Virus record (IMG/VR): IMGVR_UViG_3300032156_000014
Coordinates: 1 to 52,498 of that record
Length of the DNA stretch: 52,498 nt
Reading direction: 5' to 3' (one strand)
Source: a virus
Made by a program: the position numbers and the translations under genes. This document shows, piece by piece, positions 1 to 52,498 of this stretch; positions within the stretch are counted from its first letter, which is position 1; each line of letters begins with the position of its first letter. The notes below the pieces were generated by a model that saw nothing but the letters and a program-made list of their open reading frames with translations, searched no databases and had not been told where the DNA came from.

Positions 1-224
1 GCTTTGGCAATTGAAATGATGGTCTTGTTTATCTCGCTGGTTTTCCTGGCTCTCAGTATCTTCTTTGCCTTTGCAAGCATTTCACCTGAACGGGACATGT
101 AAGACATCAGGGTAGATATTCTTTCTGACATCTCTTCCGGGTCCCCTGATACGGTTATATCAAGATAGGCCTGTATTTGCTCGGCTTCTTTCTTCAGTTC
201 GTCCATTGGATTATTCTTTATCAT
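1..224 (-). CDS. 5' part of a 133-residue protein gene that crosses the window ends
   Basis: On the minus strand an ATG at 224 opens a frame (MIKNNPMDELKKEA...) that runs off base 1 and continues in frame at 52254, ending with a stop at 52077. Joined, it is 402 bases, 133 residues. The protein is helical and charged, with no motif I recognise. Its start lies 14 bases inside the end of the HNH gene at 211-825, so it is probably in the same transcript as the nuclease-translocase gene and leads on to the HU-like gene. Function unknown. Confidence 0.8.
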   Translation of the reverse strand, partial: MIKNNPMDELKKEAEQIQAYLDITVSGDPEEMSERISTLMSYMSRSGEMLAKAKKILRARKTSEINKTIISIAK

Positions 225-245
225 ATCTCCATAGAAATCCGTATG
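1..245. repeat. Left copy of the terminal direct repeat
   Basis: Bases 1-245 are repeated at the other end of the window (52255-52498). The copies differ by one base: after CTTTCT the left copy reads GACATC and the right copy ACATC. The reading frame that crosses the join is open in the left copy and shifted in the right one, so the left copy is probably correct. This is most simply an assembly overlap of a circular or circularly permuted molecule; a true packaged terminal repeat is less likely but not excluded. Confidence 0.95.
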
Positions 246-825
246 CAGATTTTATGTCGCCCCGCGTTACCTTCCCAATGTTTCCGTGAGGGTATCCCAA
301 TTCTCTTTCAATATCAGAAAGCGATCCCCATTCTTGAATAAAATTGCCGTTTTTATCGTATTGATAAACTTTCTTAGCATACGGGCTCAATTCTCCTCGT
401 TTTGCTATCCTTTTTTGACTTTCGGACATTTTCTTCTTTGATGTGAGAGTATATCTGAACCCTTTTCTTAATTCAGATTTCCTTTGCGGAAGAGTTCCGT
501 AATTCACATTATACTTTGCCGTACACCACTCAAGATTATCAGCGGAATTGTTTAATTTATCCTCGTCTTTGTGGTTTACTTGTTTTAAGTTGTGTGGATT
601 AGGAATAAATGACAATGCGACTATTCTGTTTATTCGCCAGTCCTTGCGAGTATTCTTAGAATATAAAAGCACATGCTTATATCCCTGTTTTGAGACTGAT
701 CCTACTAAAATGCCTCCAAGCGTACCATTTCTTGGCAATGATTTAATAACGCCAAAATTGCTAACTTGATATAGCCCTTTATATCCAGGCACGTCTTTCC
801 AAATTTCTATTTCTGACTCTATCAT
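211..825 (-). CDS. HNH homing endonuclease (NUMOD4-HNH-NUMOD1)
   Basis: The 204-residue protein starts with a NUMOD4-type segment (WKDVPGYKGLYQVSNFG, residues about 9-25). An HNH core follows (QVNHKDEDKLNNSADNLEW, about 82-100), then a C-terminal NUMOD1-like segment (KVYQYDKNGNFIQEW, about 151-165). Such proteins are free-standing or intron-borne DNA endonucleases that spread their own genes. It sits 2 bases downstream of the nuclease-FtsK gene and overlaps the next gene by 14 bases, and no broken gene flanks it, so it looks free-standing. Confidence 0.9.
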   Translation of the reverse strand: MIESEIEIWKDVPGYKGLYQVSNFGVIKSLPRNGTLGGILVGSVSKQGYKHVLLYSKNTRKDWRINRIVALSFIPNPHNLKQVNHKDEDKLNNSADNLEWCTAKYNVNYGTLPQRKSELRKGFRYTLTSKKKMSESQKRIAKRGELSPYAKKVYQYDKNGNFIQEWGSLSDIERELGYPHGNIGKVTRGDIKSAYGFLWRYDKE

Positions 826-827
826 GA

Positions 828-2906
828 TTATTTCAAATAAAAACCCTGTGCCCGGACCACAAATAGATATTCTGGAGATTTAATTAAAAAATCTCCCCTG
901 CCATTTAAAGATTCAGCGCCGGGCTCGTCTATCACGACCATAGAATCGATATCTTTGGGCACCCTGAAGCATACTTGTACCGGGAAATTAACCTTCGCAT
1001 CACCGGTTATTACTTTTGTCGACGCCCTCTGTGTGGCAGCTATGATCCTGAATCCCGATGAACGACCTTTTTGAAGCAGGATCCTCAGGTTCTCTTCCAG
1101 TGACTTGTCAACACTCTTGACCACTCTTTTGGTCTTGGCCCTGCCGTCGCTGTATGCTCCGACAACTTCGTTAGCATAGTTTTTCAGCTTCTCTCCCTTG
1201 CGTGAATTGGCAACAGCATCAGCAAACTCATCAAAGACTATCAGCATTTTCTTAATTGATTGCGTCCTGATCCTCTTCTCCATTTCTTCAACCAGCATCA
1301 TCATCTGCAGCTCAATCTCACTGATATCGCTGACAACAGTGACCCCGTTCACAGATTTATAGCTCAGGAATTCATGCTTAGGATCAAATATGTAAACCTC
1401 ATTGACCCCCGCTGTTAATGCGTATTCGATTGTAGATCTCAGAAATACTGACTTCCCCGAACCTGTCGCCCCACAAACCAGCATGTGCGGTGTTGAGTGA
1501 TTGTCAAGGTCCCAGAATATTGTTTGCTGAAAATTGTTGATTCCAAGCGGCAGCTTGTGGTCCGCAAGCCGGGACCTGTCCCATACCAGTGTTGAAAAGC
1601 CTTTTTTACCTGACTCAACGGCCAGATACGACTTACCTTCGTAAACATAAAGGTCTTTCTGTATCCTTACATTTGAGACATTAAGTGCATTGGCGATATC
1701 CAACTTGTAACGCTGGATGGTTGATATAGGAACTCCGGCATTAATCTCAAGCAGGTATGATGCACTTGAATAACCGTCAAAGATGTGCTGTACCTTCGCG
1801 ACGATCCCGAAAGATCGAAGGATATGTTCAATTTTCTCCTGGTTTGTCATATTTTTATTGCTAAAGTCATAGGGTATAAACTGCTCTGTGAAATGCTTGA
1901 AGTTCCTGATAACGTTTGGTGTGACCGAGGTAAGGGATGCATCCCTGATCTTCCGCATACGCTCGCGCATGAGCGGTTTTTTTGATTCCTGGATATTGAA
2001 ATCCTCTACTTCTGCAATCATTGTCTTGGCCCAGAAGTCATATACCTCGGCTTTGTCGGTCAGGTTATCATTGTCATTGATCATATATACATAATCAGGA
2101 TCACCGACGGCCTCAATCATTCTTTTCAGCGGTTCATATAAAAGCGCCTCATACAACTTCCTGGTATTCTCATCCATTATTGCTTTGTGCGGAACCAGCT
2201 GGGGTGAGTTGTCTTTATTCTTTGAAAGTTTATTTTCAATGAACCAGACCTCATCAACCCTTTCGCCGTTTTCTTCTTCATACCCGAGGACATAAGTAAT
2301 TGCCTGCTTGCCAATCGAGAACTTGATCTCATCCTCATCACTAAACGACTTCTTTGATTTATGGTCAATGATTACCAGCTTGTTATCATTTGTCCTGATA
2401 ATAAGATCAATAACCAGAACGCAAGGCAGGGGAATATCCACGCCGTTTACTGTCAGCCATGCTTTTATCCTGACCTCGGTCCCAATAATCTCTTTAATCT
2501 CAGATTCATAAACCTGGATTTCCTTCATGAAGTTGTTTATGAACTGAGAGACCGACTTAACGGCTGTATTCTTGCACTCTTCAACCGTCGGTGTTGTTTT
2601 CTGGATCTTCCATGCATTTGCAGGTACCTCTTCAATATAGCTAAACGCCACCTGTTCAAGATTAACCAGGTCGGGGGTTCGTCCCTCTTTCTTATTCAGA
2701 AAATACGAACTGAGCGCTGCATGATAAGCCTGCCCGGCTACTGATGCTGATGATGACTTCTCACTGCAGCCATACAGGTATTTCATCTCGAATTCCTTCT
2801 CGTTTCGTGAAAAGGTGTTCACCCTCGAAAACGACCACGTATCTACCAAGTAATTCGAGAGCAATGTATTTAGCTGCTCCGGGGATAGCTGTTTGTATTT
2901 GTTCAT
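828..2906 (-). CDS. PD-(D/E)XK nuclease fused to an FtsK/HerA-type DNA translocase
   Basis: The 692-residue protein has two parts. Residues about 1-300 form a RecB/Cas4-like nuclease: His62 in GQAYHAAL, Asp167, the D-H-K triad at 181-183, and a QxxxY motif at 201-205. Residues about 355-440 resemble the FtsK alpha domain. Residues about 470-692 form the RecA-fold motor, with Walker A GATGSGKS (479-486) and Walker B LIVFDEFAD (555-563), and match FtsK closely through ATQR and the C-terminal segment. No membrane segments or gamma domain are seen. The start lies 2 bases after the previous gene. By analogy with HerA-NurA and AddAB it may resect or process DNA ends during phage recombination or packaging; that role is inferred. 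Confidence 0.88.
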   Translation of the reverse strand: MNKYKQLSPEQLNTLLSNYLVDTWSFSRVNTFSRNEKEFEMKYLYGCSEKSSSASVAGQAYHAALSSYFLNKKEGRTPDLVNLEQVAFSYIEEVPANAWKIQKTTPTVEECKNTAVKSVSQFINNFMKEIQVYESEIKEIIGTEVRIKAWLTVNGVDIPLPCVLVIDLIIRTNDNKLVIIDHKSKKSFSDEDEIKFSIGKQAITYVLGYEEENGERVDEVWFIENKLSKNKDNSPQLVPHKAIMDENTRKLYEALLYEPLKRMIEAVGDPDYVYMINDNDNLTDKAEVYDFWAKTMIAEVEDFNIQESKKPLMRERMRKIRDASLTSVTPNVIRNFKHFTEQFIPYDFSNKNMTNQEKIEHILRSFGIVAKVQHIFDGYSSASYLLEINAGVPISTIQRYKLDIANALNVSNVRIQKDLYVYEGKSYLAVESGKKGFSTLVWDRSRLADHKLPLGINNFQQTIFWDLDNHSTPHMLVCGATGSGKSVFLRSTIEYALTAGVNEVYIFDPKHEFLSYKSVNGVTVVSDISEIELQMMMLVEEMEKRIRTQSIKKMLIVFDEFADAVANSRKGEKLKNYANEVVGAYSDGRAKTKRVVKSVDKSLEENLRILLQKGRSSGFRIIAATQRASTKVITGDAKVNFPVQVCFRVPKDIDSMVVIDEPGAESLNGRGDFLIKSPEYLFVVRAQGFYLK

Positions 2907-2908
2907 GA

Positions 2909-3781
2909 CTATAACAGCTTGCCCGGCTCTGCCTGTGCCTGGTTCTGTTCTGAATTCTGAACCCGGGTTGTCTCCGTCTTTTGTTTGTCTCTCAGGGTTT
3001 TCTTCTTCTCATCAATGGTTTTCCCTTTCGGGGCACCCTTATTAATGATGTCCTCCGGGGTGAGCTCCTTATCTTTAAGCGCCTGCAGATAGCCTTGCAG
3101 GTCAGCAATATGTTCGGCTCTGATCGCTGTTTTTGTTTTGAGGCCAATGCACAGGATAACAGCCTCTTCGTTTATCCCATAATCATTCTTGAATGTTTTC
3201 AATATGCGGTCGCGTTCTTTCAGTAGTTTTGCACTATCAGAAAGATCGCCAACGGCACACTTGAAGGCCTCATCATATACCTTGTCTGTGATAGACTTGG
3301 GAACTACTTTCAGAATCGCATTTCTCTCAGCTACGGCCAGAATCGCCATTGCATTTGTCTCAATTACCGAATCAGAATAACGCTTGCCGCTGCGGTCAAT
3401 GATCGACCTCCGGGCCTCTACACATACCGCATAGTTTGTCTCAAGATCAAATGCAACCGCTTCAGCCACAACTGAGCGGGCATCAATTTGTTTCACCCGC
3501 TGCTGAACGCGGATATTGCCATATTGCTGGCAGATGATCCTTGCCAGGTGAACACTTGGCCCGGTAACATTTTGTCCCCCCACCGGCTTGGCATAACGGC
3601 AGCTTTTTGCTGTCTCTTTGTCAAGGGTAGCAATGACAATACTGTTTTCAAGGACCCTCCTTAGATCCCTGGGATAACGTTTTGCCGTTGCTACCTGTAT
3701 GTCAATCGCAGCACGTTCCTGGGCTTCAAAAACTTCGAGGCCCTGTGTTTCAAATACCTGTACTTCATTTGGTTCATTCAT
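2909..3781 (-). CDS. Conserved phage protein, possible ssDNA-annealing recombinase
   Basis: The 290-residue protein has an N-terminal region (about 25-165) with the pattern I associate with a widespread phage family that often sits beside RecB/Cas4-like nucleases: IQVATAKRYPRD, then VTGPSVHLARI, then an Ala-rich AILAVAERNAILKVVP. The C-terminal 60 residues are Lys/Glu/Gln-rich and probably disordered. It lies directly upstream of the nuclease-FtsK gene, which would suit an annealing partner for a resection enzyme. I cannot show annealase activity from sequence, so the assignment rests on context and family memory. Confidence 0.5.
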   Translation of the reverse strand: MNEPNEVQVFETQGLEVFEAQERAAIDIQVATAKRYPRDLRRVLENSIVIATLDKETAKSCRYAKPVGGQNVTGPSVHLARIICQQYGNIRVQQRVKQIDARSVVAEAVAFDLETNYAVCVEARRSIIDRSGKRYSDSVIETNAMAILAVAERNAILKVVPKSITDKVYDEAFKCAVGDLSDSAKLLKERDRILKTFKNDYGINEEAVILCIGLKTKTAIRAEHIADLQGYLQALKDKELTPEDIINKGAPKGKTIDEKKKTLRDKQKTETTRVQNSEQNQAQAEPGKLL

Positions 3782-5911: not shown

Positions 5912-6376
5912 CTATATATTTGGTATATAGTCAAAATCAATACTTTCCGTCCTGCGCCCCCCGGAGCACCTTGCCTCAGTTCTGGCCGTCTTGCTTCTGA
6001 GAGCCCTGGTTCTGATAACCTCATGTCCGGGAATAAGGTCAAAGACAAGGAAGAGCGCTATCATTGCAACGGTCATGATCTTACGCCTGCCCTCCGATAT
6101 GATCAGCGTGACATTGAATTCTTTGCACCAGAGCCATGCGGAGAACTCGGCGATGTTACGGGCTCCGACTTTGCGAAAAGCGTTTCTGAGTGTATTGGCT
6201 ATGGTCAGGGGACTGCGAAAGAAGATCGTCGCGGCTTCTCTCTGTGTATAGCCAAAAGCGACCTGCTTGCCTATCTCAAGTTCCCTGTCTGTCAGTTCTG
6301 CATCCCATTTAAGATGAAGCCCTGCCGAGGCCTCAAAAGCAGCCCTTATTGGTGATATGGTTAAGGTGTCGCTCAT
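5912..6376 (-). CDS. LuxR/GerE-type HTH protein with a hydrophobic segment
   Basis: Residues about 25-80 match a LuxR-family HTH: LTDRELEIGKQVAFGYTQRE, then AATIFFRSPLTIANTLRN. After it comes one hydrophobic stretch (MTVAMIALFLVFDLI, about 100-114), possibly a membrane anchor, then a basic tail. Families with this layout (HTH plus helix, no receiver domain) are common in Bacteroidota phages. It overlaps the antirepressor gene by 4 bases and the HTH gene follows 2 bases later, making a regulatory block of three genes. Confidence 0.75.
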   Translation of the reverse strand: MSDTLTISPIRAAFEASAGLHLKWDAELTDRELEIGKQVAFGYTQREAATIFFRSPLTIANTLRNAFRKVGARNIAEFSAWLWCKEFNVTLIISEGRRKIMTVAMIALFLVFDLIPGHEVIRTRALRSKTARTEARCSGGRRTESIDFDYIPNI

Positions 6377-7179
6377 AACGGATGGGTTTTGTTGTATATG
6401 AATTTATTGACGAAATAAACCTGTCCCCTGCCGGTTACTTTTGAAGTTCTGGAAATAAGGACCTTACCGCCCGGCTGGTTTATGGTTGTCTCTTTGATCT
6501 CAAATAGCCCGAGCTCCATTGCTTTTTGTGTCGGCATGTTGTAATAATCACCCCTGACTCCCAGATAGCCCTTTTGACGGAGCCATATATAAAGCCTGTT
6601 CTGGCCTATCTCTATGTCATTCTGATTGAGTATTTTGGCAAACTCACCTATCAGGATGCTTTTATCGCTGGTTGCCACCGCATCAGCAAAAAGCACTTTT
6701 GGGGCCTGGTCCTTTGCAGTCTCCTCTAATAGTTCAACTTTCTTTTCAAGCGATTGCGCCCGCTGCCTGGATTCTTTTAGTTCTGTGAGCACCCTGATTG
6801 CATTGTCAGGATCAGCAAGAATGCTGTCGATTGTCTGTGGCATGGCGGTGATACCATGCTTTAAGAGTTCTTTAATCCTGTCATTACACCATATAGCAAA
6901 AGCAGGAGAAAGCCATCTGGCAAATTCAAGAGCGATATCTTCATGCATCCATGTTCCGAAATCAGAGCCGCCGTTTCTAACTATCACTAAATCAGGCGGT
7001 GTGCATTTCCTCACAGCGGACATGGTTTCAATAAATTCGGAAGCTGAATTAGTTCTTAAGAAATCAACCGGTCTTTTTCCGAACGGTCTTGCCATCTCGG
7101 TTGCATTGACCATAACGCTGTCACCTTCTGTCTGGAAACATATTTCAGCGCCTTTATAGACAAAAATCTGGTTATTCAT
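6373..7179 (-). CDS. KilA-N domain antirepressor with C-terminal KilAC (ANT) domain
   Basis: The 268-residue protein has an N-terminal KilA-N domain (VNATEMARPFGKRPVDFLR, about 24-42; DIALEFARWLSPAFAIWCND, about 81-100). A coiled coil follows (about 130-155), then a C-terminal phage antirepressor domain (KILNQNDIEIGQNRLYIWLR, about 183-202). KilA-N proteins bind DNA, and ANT domains usually counter a repressor. Its leader carries a long hairpin (7199-7251). No integrase is seen, so it may control lytic timing rather than prophage induction. Confidence 0.9.
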   Translation of the reverse strand: MNNQIFVYKGAEICFQTEGDSVMVNATEMARPFGKRPVDFLRTNSASEFIETMSAVRKCTPPDLVIVRNGGSDFGTWMHEDIALEFARWLSPAFAIWCNDRIKELLKHGITAMPQTIDSILADPDNAIRVLTELKESRQRAQSLEKKVELLEETAKDQAPKVLFADAVATSDKSILIGEFAKILNQNDIEIGQNRLYIWLRQKGYLGVRGDYYNMPTQKAMELGLFEIKETTINQPGGKVLISRTSKVTGRGQVYFVNKFIYNKTHPL

Positions 7180-36980: not shown

Positions 36981-37329
36981 GGAATAGATTTAGAGAGCCG
37001 GTATGTTCTACCTCAGTTTTGTCGGCCCATTTTGCACGGTTCTTTAACCAGAATATCCTATCAATTCCACCTTTCTCAATAGAGTCTTTAAAGATCGTAC
37101 CCTCAACCAGGGCGACGCCCTCTTCTGTTTTTTGTGTGCGGTAAGCCGAAAAATCTTTTTTATATTTCCGCTTAACTGCATTATAAAGAGTGTCAGGATG
37201 ATAATTCAAGAGCCTTGCCACTGCAGCGCCATTACAACCAGCTTTAAGGTAAAAATCAACTTTCTGCCAATCAATTACGATTTTCTTCCTTCCGGATCTT
37301 CGTTTATGTTTCTTCTTGATGTAAGCCAT
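36925..37329 (-). CDS. terS: Terminase small subunit
   Basis: A 134-residue protein with a basic N-terminus (MAYIKKKHKRRSGRKK), an HTH-like region (AGCNGAAVARLLNYHPDTLY, about 31-50), and a C-terminal helical tail ending GPGDSKKD. It lies directly before the large subunit, the standard order, and overlaps both neighbours. Its HTH would select the packaging site. Confidence 0.83.
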   Translation of the reverse strand: MAYIKKKHKRRSGRKKIVIDWQKVDFYLKAGCNGAAVARLLNYHPDTLYNAVKRKYKKDFSAYRTQKTEEGVALVEGTIFKDSIEKGGIDRIFWLKNRAKWADKTEVEHTGSLNLFLELIQKATSDGPGDSKKD

Positions 37330-38048
37330 TATGTATTCAGTTTCTCAAAAAACTCTTCGCCTTTGATCATAATACTATCAGGCCGGAATCCAAATGTATC
37401 AAGGAATTGGGCCTTATTCTCGTATTTATCAAAACTTAGGGTGACATAGGCCGCGCTCTGCTGGTACATCAGGCCCTTCTTCATATCTTTCTTGACCTGC
37501 TGCATTTGCTTCTTCCGATCTTCATAGCTCCTGCCAAGATCTGCAAAGTCGTTTTTAATATCGCTGGCTTCTCCGGTCAATACAGGTATTTCAATATTCA
37601 TCAGCTTCAGGTCATTATCTTCAAGGCCTGCAAGCTTATAATCTATTTCCGGAATAAGGTTCGCGAGCAGGTCCAGGTCCTGGGGCGTGTTTGTTGCCTG
37701 GGCGTCCATGAATATGTTCTGCTCAATCTCCTGCTTTCGTGTCAGGTTTATCTTTTCAACCTTCACATCATAATCGACGGGGTGATCTTTGGTATTATTG
37801 AAGATCATATCGAGTGCATACAAGCGTTTGTGCCCTGAGATCAGGTTGCCAGTGCCCTCGTTCCAGATCAGGCCTCCCAAGAAAGCCACGTTCTTAAAGT
37901 TTCTGAGCTGCTTCTGAATAGCCTCTTGTGTGTGCCTCTTCGGGTTGCCCGGCATGAAATTTATCTGCGACCGTTTTATGATCACGGTTTCGCTCTGCTT
38001 AAATTTCTCTTTCTTCTCAGGCTGTTTTTTGGCTTTCGGTGTACTCAT
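37329..38048 (-). CDS. ParB-like nuclease-domain protein
   Basis: ATG 38048 gives MSTPKAKKQPEKKEKFKQSE. The ParB/Srx fold follows: NFMPGNPKRHTQEAIQKQL, GGLIWNEGTGNLISGHKRL, then NIFMDAQATNTPQDLDLLA. Such proteins often sit between PP-loop proteins and terminases in phages; several act as nucleases or modification factors. An ATG at 38081 lies inside the upstream gene and is less likely. Exact role unknown. Confidence 0.8.
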   Translation of the reverse strand: MSTPKAKKQPEKKEKFKQSETVIIKRSQINFMPGNPKRHTQEAIQKQLRNFKNVAFLGGLIWNEGTGNLISGHKRLYALDMIFNNTKDHPVDYDVKVEKINLTRKQEIEQNIFMDAQATNTPQDLDLLANLIPEIDYKLAGLEDNDLKLMNIEIPVLTGEASDIKNDFADLGRSYEDRKKQMQQVKKDMKKGLMYQQSAAYVTLSFDKYENKAQFLDTFGFRPDSIMIKGEEFFEKLNT

Positions 38049-38691
38049 AAAGCAAATGATTGACGGCCGGGTACTGAGCAATTACTTTCTTAAGATCTTC
38101 AGGATACTTCTCATATAGCCAGCCGATATATTGTTTATTGTTTATTTCAACACATTGCGAATGGTCATTATTATAACTTACCGGCAGGGGTAGTTTATAA
38201 TACCTTATCAAGTCAATGACCTGCTTGTTATTAAGATTTGCCAGAGGGTAAACCCTTTTAGCTGCCCGGTTTATTGAATGATCTTCAAGCTCTTTCAGTT
38301 CAAACATGCGGTGAACAGAATCATATTTTTTCATGCCAAGACAGACCCAGCCAATTTTGACCTTTGCCCGCACCTGGTTTATGATATCTTCAAGCTGAAC
38401 ATGTTTCATGGTACGGTCCTGCTTAATGCCATAAAAGCCGGTTCTGATATGTCGCGACAAAGAAAAATGAGGTACCTGAATGAATTCTATGTTCTTATAC
38501 CTGTCAGCAAAATAAACCTGGTACTTTCGTACATGGTCCAGATCTTTAACCACGTACATGTAAACAGAGATAACACGGTCAAAGATCATGCTGCAGTAAT
38601 GAGTCATCAAAATTGAATCTTTGCCGGTCAATGAACTGAATAGTATAATACTATCAGCCTCTTGTCTTATCTTTTCGAGCGGCCCGTTCAT
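38017..38691 (-). CDS. PP-loop ATPase, PAPS reductase-like (224 residues)
   Basis: The N-terminus has the PP-loop signature (ILFSSLTGKDSILMTHYC, about 16-33). A downstream GWVCLGMKKYDSVHRMF and INRAAKRVYPLANLNNKQV match phage proteins annotated as phosphoadenosine phosphosulfate reductase. These use ATP or PAPS chemistry; the phage role is unknown and could be DNA modification. The start codon lies 2 bases after the terminator T run at 38694-38719. Confidence 0.8.
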   Translation of the reverse strand: MNGPLEKIRQEADSIILFSSLTGKDSILMTHYCSMIFDRVISVYMYVVKDLDHVRKYQVYFADRYKNIEFIQVPHFSLSRHIRTGFYGIKQDRTMKHVQLEDIINQVRAKVKIGWVCLGMKKYDSVHRMFELKELEDHSINRAAKRVYPLANLNNKQVIDLIRYYKLPLPVSYNNDHSQCVEINNKQYIGWLYEKYPEDLKKVIAQYPAVNHLLYEYTESQKTA

Positions 38692-50882: not shown

Positions 50883-51056
50883 TTATTTTTTCTTCAGCAG
50901 TTCTTTGAGCAGATCAATCTGAATTTCAATGTGATGTATCTTTCTCTGTATCTTCCCGTCGATCTTTGGGAATGATAAAGAGCTTTCACGGACAGCCTGA
51001 AGCTCCGTGAGCCTGGCTTCACAGCGCCGACGAAGCGGTGATTTTAGAATGTTCAT
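50883..51056 (-). CDS. Small basic coiled-coil protein (57 residues)
   Basis: ATG 51056 overlaps the nuclease stop by 4 bases and the frame ends at 50883. MNILKSPLRRRCEARLTELQ, then KIQRKIHHIEIQIDLLKELL, is a basic N-terminus and leucine-rich helix. Function unknown. Confidence 0.65.
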   Translation of the reverse strand: MNILKSPLRRRCEARLTELQAVRESSLSFPKIDGKIQRKIHHIEIQIDLLKELLKKK

Positions 51057-51460
51057 AGTTTCATGTATTTATCAATGGTTTGTATTGCACTTTCAAGGCC
51101 GACACTGAATTCAGCCACAAATCCCCGGCTTCTAAGTCCTTTAAGCATGTTATCCTGTTCCCGGATATGATCATCTGCCGGCTCTCCGTTTTTCTTAAAT
51201 AACCTGGTTCCTTCTGCTTTAAGCTCAATGAATAAGCCGTGATATTTAAACCGCTTACCGGGTTCCGCAATAAATAGGTCCGGCCATCCTCTCTGTCCCT
51301 GGATTACCTTCATTAGCCCTGCCTGGGTTTTAGTGTGATGTAACCCGGCATAGTCGAAATGAAACTGAACATGCGGGTACTGAGCCCTGAGATAATAAGC
51401 AATCTGCCTGCAAAGAATATACTCAGGTGAATAGCCTCTTGATCTGAATGAATTAGCCAT
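51053..51460 (-). CDS. VRR-NUC-type PD-(D/E)XK nuclease (135 residues)
   Basis: The motif GWPDLFIAEPGKRFKYHGLF followed by IELKAEG gives the PD and ExK catalytic residues of VRR-NUC nucleases, with a basic N-terminus. Phage members act on branched or structured DNA. It follows the tRNA-like gene closely and precedes a small coiled-coil gene, so it is probably in the replication group. Confidence 0.85.
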   Translation of the reverse strand: MANSFRSRGYSPEYILCRQIAYYLRAQYPHVQFHFDYAGLHHTKTQAGLMKVIQGQRGWPDLFIAEPGKRFKYHGLFIELKAEGTRLFKKNGEPADDHIREQDNMLKGLRSRGFVAEFSVGLESAIQTIDKYMKL

Positions 51461-52076: not shown

Positions 52077-52361
52077 TTAATATCCTGTCTTCGACAATCT
52101 CATTTCCTCTTTCTCGTAAGAAAGCAGTGATCTCAGGCCGTCGATCTGATGGGTGCATGTCTTATTTATCCTTTCGGTCCAGTCAACCAGGTATGATTCT
52201 TCCTCGCATATTGAGTCCAGAAGTGCATTTTGAACGGATGCAGAAAGATGTGAGGCTTTGGCAATTGAAATGATGGTCTTGTTTATCTCGCTGGTTTTCC
52301 TGGCTCTCAGTATCTTCTTTGCCTTTGCAAGCATTTCACCTGAACGGGACATGTAAGACAT
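52077..52361 (-). CDS. 3' part of the gene that crosses the window ends
   Basis: This is the 3' part of the 133-residue gene whose start is at 224. In this right-hand copy a missing G near 52381 shifts the frame upstream, so an apparent start appears at 52361 (MSYMSRSGEMLAKAKKILRA). The correct start comes from the left copy. No motif is recognised; it is helical and charged. Confidence 0.75.
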   Translation of the reverse strand: MSYMSRSGEMLAKAKKILRARKTSEINKTIISIAKASHLSASVQNALLDSICEEESYLVDWTERINKTCTHQIDGLRSLLSYEKEEMRLSKTGY

Positions 52362-52498
52362 CAGGGTAGATATTCTTTCTACATCTCTTCCGGGTCCCCT
52401 GATACGGTTATATCAAGATAGGCCTGTATTTGCTCGGCTTCTTTCTTCAGTTCGTCCATTGGATTATTCTTTATCATATCTCCATAGAAATCCGTATG
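52255..52498. repeat. Right copy of the terminal direct repeat
   Basis: These 244 bases repeat 1-245 with one base missing. See the left copy at 1-245. If the overlap is removed, the circular genome is about 52,254 bases. Confidence 0.95.

Follow-up and report, generated by a model that had tools for sequence, protein, structure and literature searches.

What does a phage do with a nuclease and an FtsK-type DNA motor in one polypeptide? The question is raised by the window analysed here, by which we mean the whole stretch of 52,498 bases that forms one virus record. Two neighbouring minus-strand genes, with 2 bases between them, encode a 692-residue protein, P0001 (828..2906), and, upstream of it, a 290-residue protein, P0002 (2909..3781). 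Both open reading frames had been pointed out in a sequence-only reading of this DNA and were confirmed. According to that reading, P0001 joins a nuclease to the FtsK alpha and motor domains, and the pair could be either a resection-plus-annealing module for recombination or a motor for packaging.

Domains and predicted fold of P0001

P0001 was delimited using the ORF list, Pfam, an alignment and an AlphaFold2 model, and all its features lie on the minus strand. Residues 23-229 (2220..2840) form a PD-(D/E)XK nuclease domain of the RecB/AdnA kind (Pfam PDDEXK_1, E 3.7e-11), followed by an FtsK alpha domain at residues 352-431 (1614..1853; FtsK_alpha, E 3.9e-9) and by the beta, RecA-like motor at residues 445-692 (831..1574), placed by its fold match to 2ius. 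Pfam FtsK_SpoIIIE matched from residue 461 (E 6.5e-12), and all these Pfam matches exceed the curated cut-offs. The alpha and beta motor domains, which P0001 has in common with FtsK/SpoIIIE translocases, come with a Walker A motif, GATGSGKS (residues 479-486, 1449..1472), and a Walker B motif, LIVFDE (residues 555-560, 1227..1244). P0001 lacks the gamma domain and the membrane part of cellular FtsK: the Pfam scan found no gamma domain, the protein stops where the motor stops, and the nuclease occupies the N-terminus in place of the membrane part. No YqaJ/lambda-Exo family exonuclease domain (PF09588) was found in P0001 by Pfam.

The catalytic residues are conserved in an alignment of 97 P0001 homologues. 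The nuclease residues D167, D181, K183 and Q201 do not vary, and H62, H182 and Y205 reach at least 90% conservation. The core, with its metal-binding residues D167 and D181-H182-K183 (2358..2408), displays the motifs of RecB, AddB and AdnA (G-H, D, D-x-K and QxxxY). In Walker A, no variation is seen at G479, G484 and K485, and conservation is 90% or more at G482 and S483; Walker B has an invariant E560 and a D559 conserved to at least 90%. The residues picked out beforehand from the letters (His62, Asp167, DHK 181-183, QxxxY and both Walker motifs) were correct. One homologue (L014:3784-6684) carries an intein-like insert of about 275 residues exactly inside Walker A (CGATG|C...HN|SGKS).

The AlphaFold2 model of P0001, built with 97 sequences, reached a pLDDT of 88.7. 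Because its pTM is 0.52, the model does not define how nuclease and motor are arranged. Each half was recognised by VIA-align: residues 352-692 matched the E. coli FtsK motor 2ius (Z 33.4, 2.2 A, 305 residues) and residues 12-295 the AdnA nuclease 9np6 (Z 16.6, 239 residues). Cellular FtsK and AdnA are the best structural matches of motor and nuclease, respectively. Foldseek concurs, adding the Cas4-like ACE1. Pfam, predicted folds and alignment therefore agree that a nuclease is joined to the FtsK alpha and motor domains.

The fusion in phages and bacteria

A first scan of IMG/VR gave 22 relatives of P0001. Profile scans brought the fusion to about 38 bacterial loci, mostly of Bacteroidota, and 80 viral loci. 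In total, 139 ORFs are hit by the nuclease profile as well as by the motor profile, 108 after clustering at 95%, and nearly all of these 108 non-redundant copies are full length. No ORF in the profile scans matched the nuclease profile alone, and a tblastn search with the nuclease half of P0001 gave no match in 50,697 phage records. The fusion being an assembly artefact is ruled out by the 139 ORFs that match both halves. Phages of Bacteroidota carry a P0001-type single-chain nuclease-FtsK protein. Of 395 genomes sampled from the phylum, the seed genome alone carries the fusion, which is thus rare in chromosomes.

A distant protein of Verrucomicrobiota (L097:2904-4787) shows PDDEXK_1, FtsK alpha and FtsK in the same order as P0001. 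It adjoins a gene for an AAA_16 ATPase and matches the SspH and mad8 motors. It probably belongs to a HerA/FtsK capture defence system.

Genome setting

The first and last 245 bases of the record (1-245 and 52254-52498) overlap, being 99.6% identical with a single gap, which makes a complete, circularly permuted genome probable despite its classification as linear. Directly downstream of P0001 lies a homing endonuclease gene (211..825, minus strand; Pfam NUMOD4/HNH_3/NUMOD1), a mobile insert that is probably outside the P0001-P0002 module. Following the genes past P0001 through the joined ends, this HNH homing endonuclease is succeeded by a conserved small protein, an HU-like protein, a VRR-NUC nuclease, and DUF1376 and AAA replication genes. 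The VRR-NUC protein, which resembles Holliday-junction resolvases (51053..51460, minus strand; phrog_5702, E 1.1e-6), falls in the early operon of P0001 once the genome is closed to a circle. Such an arrangement is typical of phage recombination-replication operons. A separate late module of the window encodes the two terminase subunits (large and small), the portal and the capsid.

Two further observations concern the window. A 187-residue protein encoded at 4266-4829 matches phrog_757 (DNA methyltransferase) and has no Pfam match. At 37329-38691, just upstream of the terminase genes, a PAPS-reductase-like gene is followed by a gene that is ParB-like by eye; the two are a possible DNA-modification pair.

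Annealing proteins upstream of the fusion

P0002 belongs to phrog_3657, a family annotated as of unknown function. Its predicted model (pLDDT 85) was compared with the PDB by VIA-align, and the best 12 rows are all RAD52, Mgm101 or Sak, that is, annealases of the Rad52 superfamily. The Z scores were 7.7 for human RAD52, 6.5 for yeast Mgm101 and 6.1 for Sak of phage 80a, followed by lambda Redbeta at 5.3. Foldseek with the same model gave no match with E below 1e-3. P0002 is thus predicted to be a Rad52-fold annealing protein, by a fold match that is middling (Z below 8).

The same fusion and neighbour pair recurs at other loci. Considering the 105 fusion loci that have an upstream gene, the gene directly upstream encodes a proven or likely annealase in 102. 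Most of these annealases (87/102) are RecT, phrog_561 RecT-like, Sak4-like (AAA_24), ERF, Rad52/22 or P0002-type proteins, with E values of about 1e-44 for RecT (PF03837), 2e-20 for ERF and 2e-8 for Rad52/22; the remaining 15 carry no family assignment. At least six annealase families, Rad52/Sak among them, alternate upstream of the fusion. Along the tree of the nuclease-motor, the family switches no fewer than 33 times, yet the C-terminal tail described below persists. At two loci, L114 and L144, the annealase lies one gene further upstream; the intervening ORF in L114 is of HNH type.

A YqaJ exonuclease was found in none of 46 records with the fusion vs 19 of 46 sister-annealase records without it (Fisher 3.6e-7). 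Where P0002-type genes occur without the fusion, a YqaJ exonuclease of the Red/RecE type comes next in 8 of the 10 scanned. The fusion and YqaJ exonucleases are mutually exclusive. Since YqaJ is absent beside the fusion and the fusion is paired with annealases, the fusion most likely takes the place of the exonuclease in a two-component recombinase resembling Red/RecET, with an ATP-driven pump.

A C-terminal tail common to the neighbouring annealases

The last part of P0002 (2912..3016, minus strand) is a candidate docking tail, consisting of a helix with EKKKTLRDK, a disordered linker and a GKLL-COOH end. The consensus for annealases beside the fusion is K-x-[DE]-[LM]-P-COOH, with LL and LM as variants: among the 102 upstream annealases, the last two residues are MP or LP in 75 and LL in 14. 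An end of the form [LMIVF][PLM]-COOH is found in 75/83 annealases beside the fusion vs 7/193 relatives without it, the controls being taken from four families and the rows not being independent. Within each family the difference holds, at 32/35 with the fusion vs 4/41 without it for the P0002 type, 13/15 vs 1/49 for RecT, 14/16 vs 0/47 for Sak4-like proteins and 16/17 vs 2/56 for phrog_561. In the P0002 tree, 5.5 of the 6 independent pairs on starred branches have the tail tracking the fusion, and none has it opposing the fusion; for RecT the figure is 2.4 of 3. Within their last 45 residues, 43/83 annealases beside the fusion have a second motif, KKxx[LM][KR], vs 4/193 relatives without the fusion.

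Of 1045 other proteins encoded at the fusion loci, 6 have an [LM]P end, two of the six being displaced annealases. Both of these (L114:3764-4477 and L144:2623-3411) keep an MP tail. Two upstream genes that appear to be tail-less, in L140 and L041, have broken reading frames, with [DE]MP encoded just past the break. Three annealases from different groups (L029:4843-5772, L057:3298-4416 and L108:3992-4981) have a C-terminal extension of about 75 residues in common, at 56-71% identity, ending in SPTLM or SPTLL; the tail region can thus move as a unit. P0001 columns that vary with tail type (P vs L/M/K/A) gave weak, phylogeny-like signals and no clear site. Judging from its distribution, we think that the tail is probably a docking tag that would bind P0001 directly, although it may have a different partner.

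Four P0002-type proteins at loci without the nuclease-motor gene (L284, L289, L294 and L312, near 6000-6870) end in ELPL, ELPLN, KLPLA and ELPLE, respectively. No exonuclease gene lies directly downstream of them. These ends are possibly a related tail for another partner.

Discussion

Taken with the predicted folds, the annealase neighbours and the exclusion of YqaJ argue strongly for the resection-plus-annealing module proposed earlier. We consider it probable that P0001 and P0002 make up a two-component phage recombinase similar to lambda Red or RecET, in which the nuclease is driven by a motor and the tail docks the annealase. P0001 would be the arm that resects DNA ends. FtsK forms a ring on double-stranded DNA, and the alpha-beta domains of P0001 probably do likewise, pumping the DNA at the expense of ATP; the RecB/AdnA-like nuclease domain would meanwhile degrade one strand and thereby leave a single-stranded tail. 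P0002 would coat this single strand and pair it with a homologous one. The C-terminal tail of the annealase most likely docks it on P0001, so that the strand would be handed over as it is made. In this scheme we infer the hexamer, ATP-driven resection and its polarity, the annealing activity and direct binding of the tail to P0001. The nuclease of HerA-NurA is a dimer; by that analogy, six nuclease domains per ring would be unusual, which speaks against the scheme.

The alternative of a packaging or DNA-processing motor, in which the FtsK domain would fill the head with phage DNA and the nuclease would trim the ends, finds an echo in a weak match of the motor profile to phrog_2666, annotated 'terminase large subunit' (E 4.4e-10), and in the FtsK/HerA-like ATPases that package the DNA of some membrane-containing viruses (PMC7824862). 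We regard it as highly improbable, given that the window encodes its own terminase subunits, portal and capsid in the separate late module, that the P0001 gene stands among recombination genes, paired with annealases and excluding YqaJ, and that its motor is closest to cellular FtsK. A captured defence effector of the DndH or Orc/CDC6-HerA/FtsK kind, borne by the phage to destroy competing DNA of the host or of rival phages, is improbable too, if somewhat less so. Single-chain nuclease-HerA/FtsK proteins are known in defence systems (PMC10853773), and the Verrucomicrobiota protein L097, with the domain order of P0001, its AAA_16 neighbour and its SspH and mad8 motor matches, is in line with this idea. 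However, the partner in phages is an annealing protein and not a sensor or modification gene, the PADLOC matches of P0001 are at the level of the motor only, and exclusion of YqaJ would not be expected of such an effector. No annealase-free defence context was found around the fusion in phages.

It could also be argued that P0001 and the annealase cooperate but that the tail has nothing to do with P0001, being a trace of the start of the overlapping gene or a hook for a host protein, in the manner of proteins that bind the SSB tip. An ATGA overlap does join the genes in 61/102 pairs, and the tail resembles the tip of Bacteroidota SSB (...NDLPF in the SSB of L004) minus its last Phe. Nevertheless, the tail is kept in 34/41 pairs without the ATGA overlap, in 23/30 without any short overlap, and in L114 and L144 despite the intervening gene. 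Furthermore, all four Pro codons are used, only 2/36 control annealases whose genes end in ATGA carry the tail, and the tail tracks the nuclease-motor and not the annealase family. As a gene-overlap effect, the tail is rejected by these gap, codon and control tests; overall, we judge a tail unrelated to P0001 rather unlikely.

The docked two-component recombinase resembles known systems in part. In lambda Red and RecE-RecT, too, the early region of the phage pairs a PD-(D/E)XK nuclease gene with that of an annealase, and the annealases overlap with those of the fusion, namely the P0002 and RecT types. Their nuclease is of the YqaJ/lambda-Exo family, whereas P0001 combines a RecB/AdnA-like nuclease with an FtsK motor in one chain. 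The link between partners differs as well: the folded C-terminal domain of Redbeta has been implicated in contact with the exonuclease (PMC7496540), while at fusion loci it would be a short C-terminal tail common to unrelated annealases. HerA-NurA likewise couples a ring motor of the HerA/FtsK clade to a nuclease for end resection, and its motor-fed resection leaves a 3' tail (PMC9960219). It is nevertheless made of two chains, a HAS-barrel HerA and a NurA nuclease, and serves cellular repair, while P0001 is one chain with FtsK alpha and a RecB-like PDDEXK_1 domain and has a phage recombination partner. AddAB, RecBCD and AdnAB share the RecB-family nuclease fold with P0001, but their motor is an SF1 helicase and not FtsK-type. 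The FtsK-like proteins of Bacillus phage Troll (gp226) and Mycobacterium phage Optimus (gp193) share the alpha-beta motor with P0001 but have no Pfam nuclease domain.

The idea that this is an undescribed system holds in part. The combination of a nuclease with a HerA/FtsK ATPase, within a single polypeptide or operon, has already been described for DndH and for 'HerA/FtsK capture' defence (PMC10853773). Those are large multidomain restriction proteins with sensor partners and without an annealase, DndH having a type II-like REase; the neighbours of P0001 are annealases and phage early genes, not sensor, modification or Orc/CDC6 partners. What appears to be new is that such a fusion would serve a phage recombinase as its exonuclease arm, together with the shared candidate docking tail, which the sequence-only reading had not picked up. 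The literature on FtsK, nuclease and RecT/annealing, searched with bioRxiv and most subscription papers out of reach, does not describe the pair, and within the same scope no report of a tail common to unrelated annealases was found. The known partners of phage annealases are, to our knowledge, stand-alone exonucleases of the YqaJ/lambda-Exo, RecE or DUF3799 kinds.

It is tempting to propose, and we lean slightly towards this view, that P0001 is an engine into which annealases plug: its docking site would recognise one short C-terminal peptide, and any annealase gaining that peptide, be it RecT, Erf, Sak, Sak4 or the P0002 type, would become its loading partner. If so, ATP-driven resection would be coupled to loading of the annealase, much as RecBCD loads RecA, and the peptide could be transferred to further annealases. 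Alongside Red/RecET and RecBCD/AddAB, a nuclease that resects ends and carries its own pump for double-stranded DNA would represent a third design. The tail would provide a simple rule for how an exonuclease chooses its annealase, and bears on the failure of mixed or transplanted Red-like pairs; recombination of dsDNA by transplanted exonuclease-RecT pairs has been reported to be inefficient (PMC8093625). The module could also yield recombineering tools for Bacteroidota.
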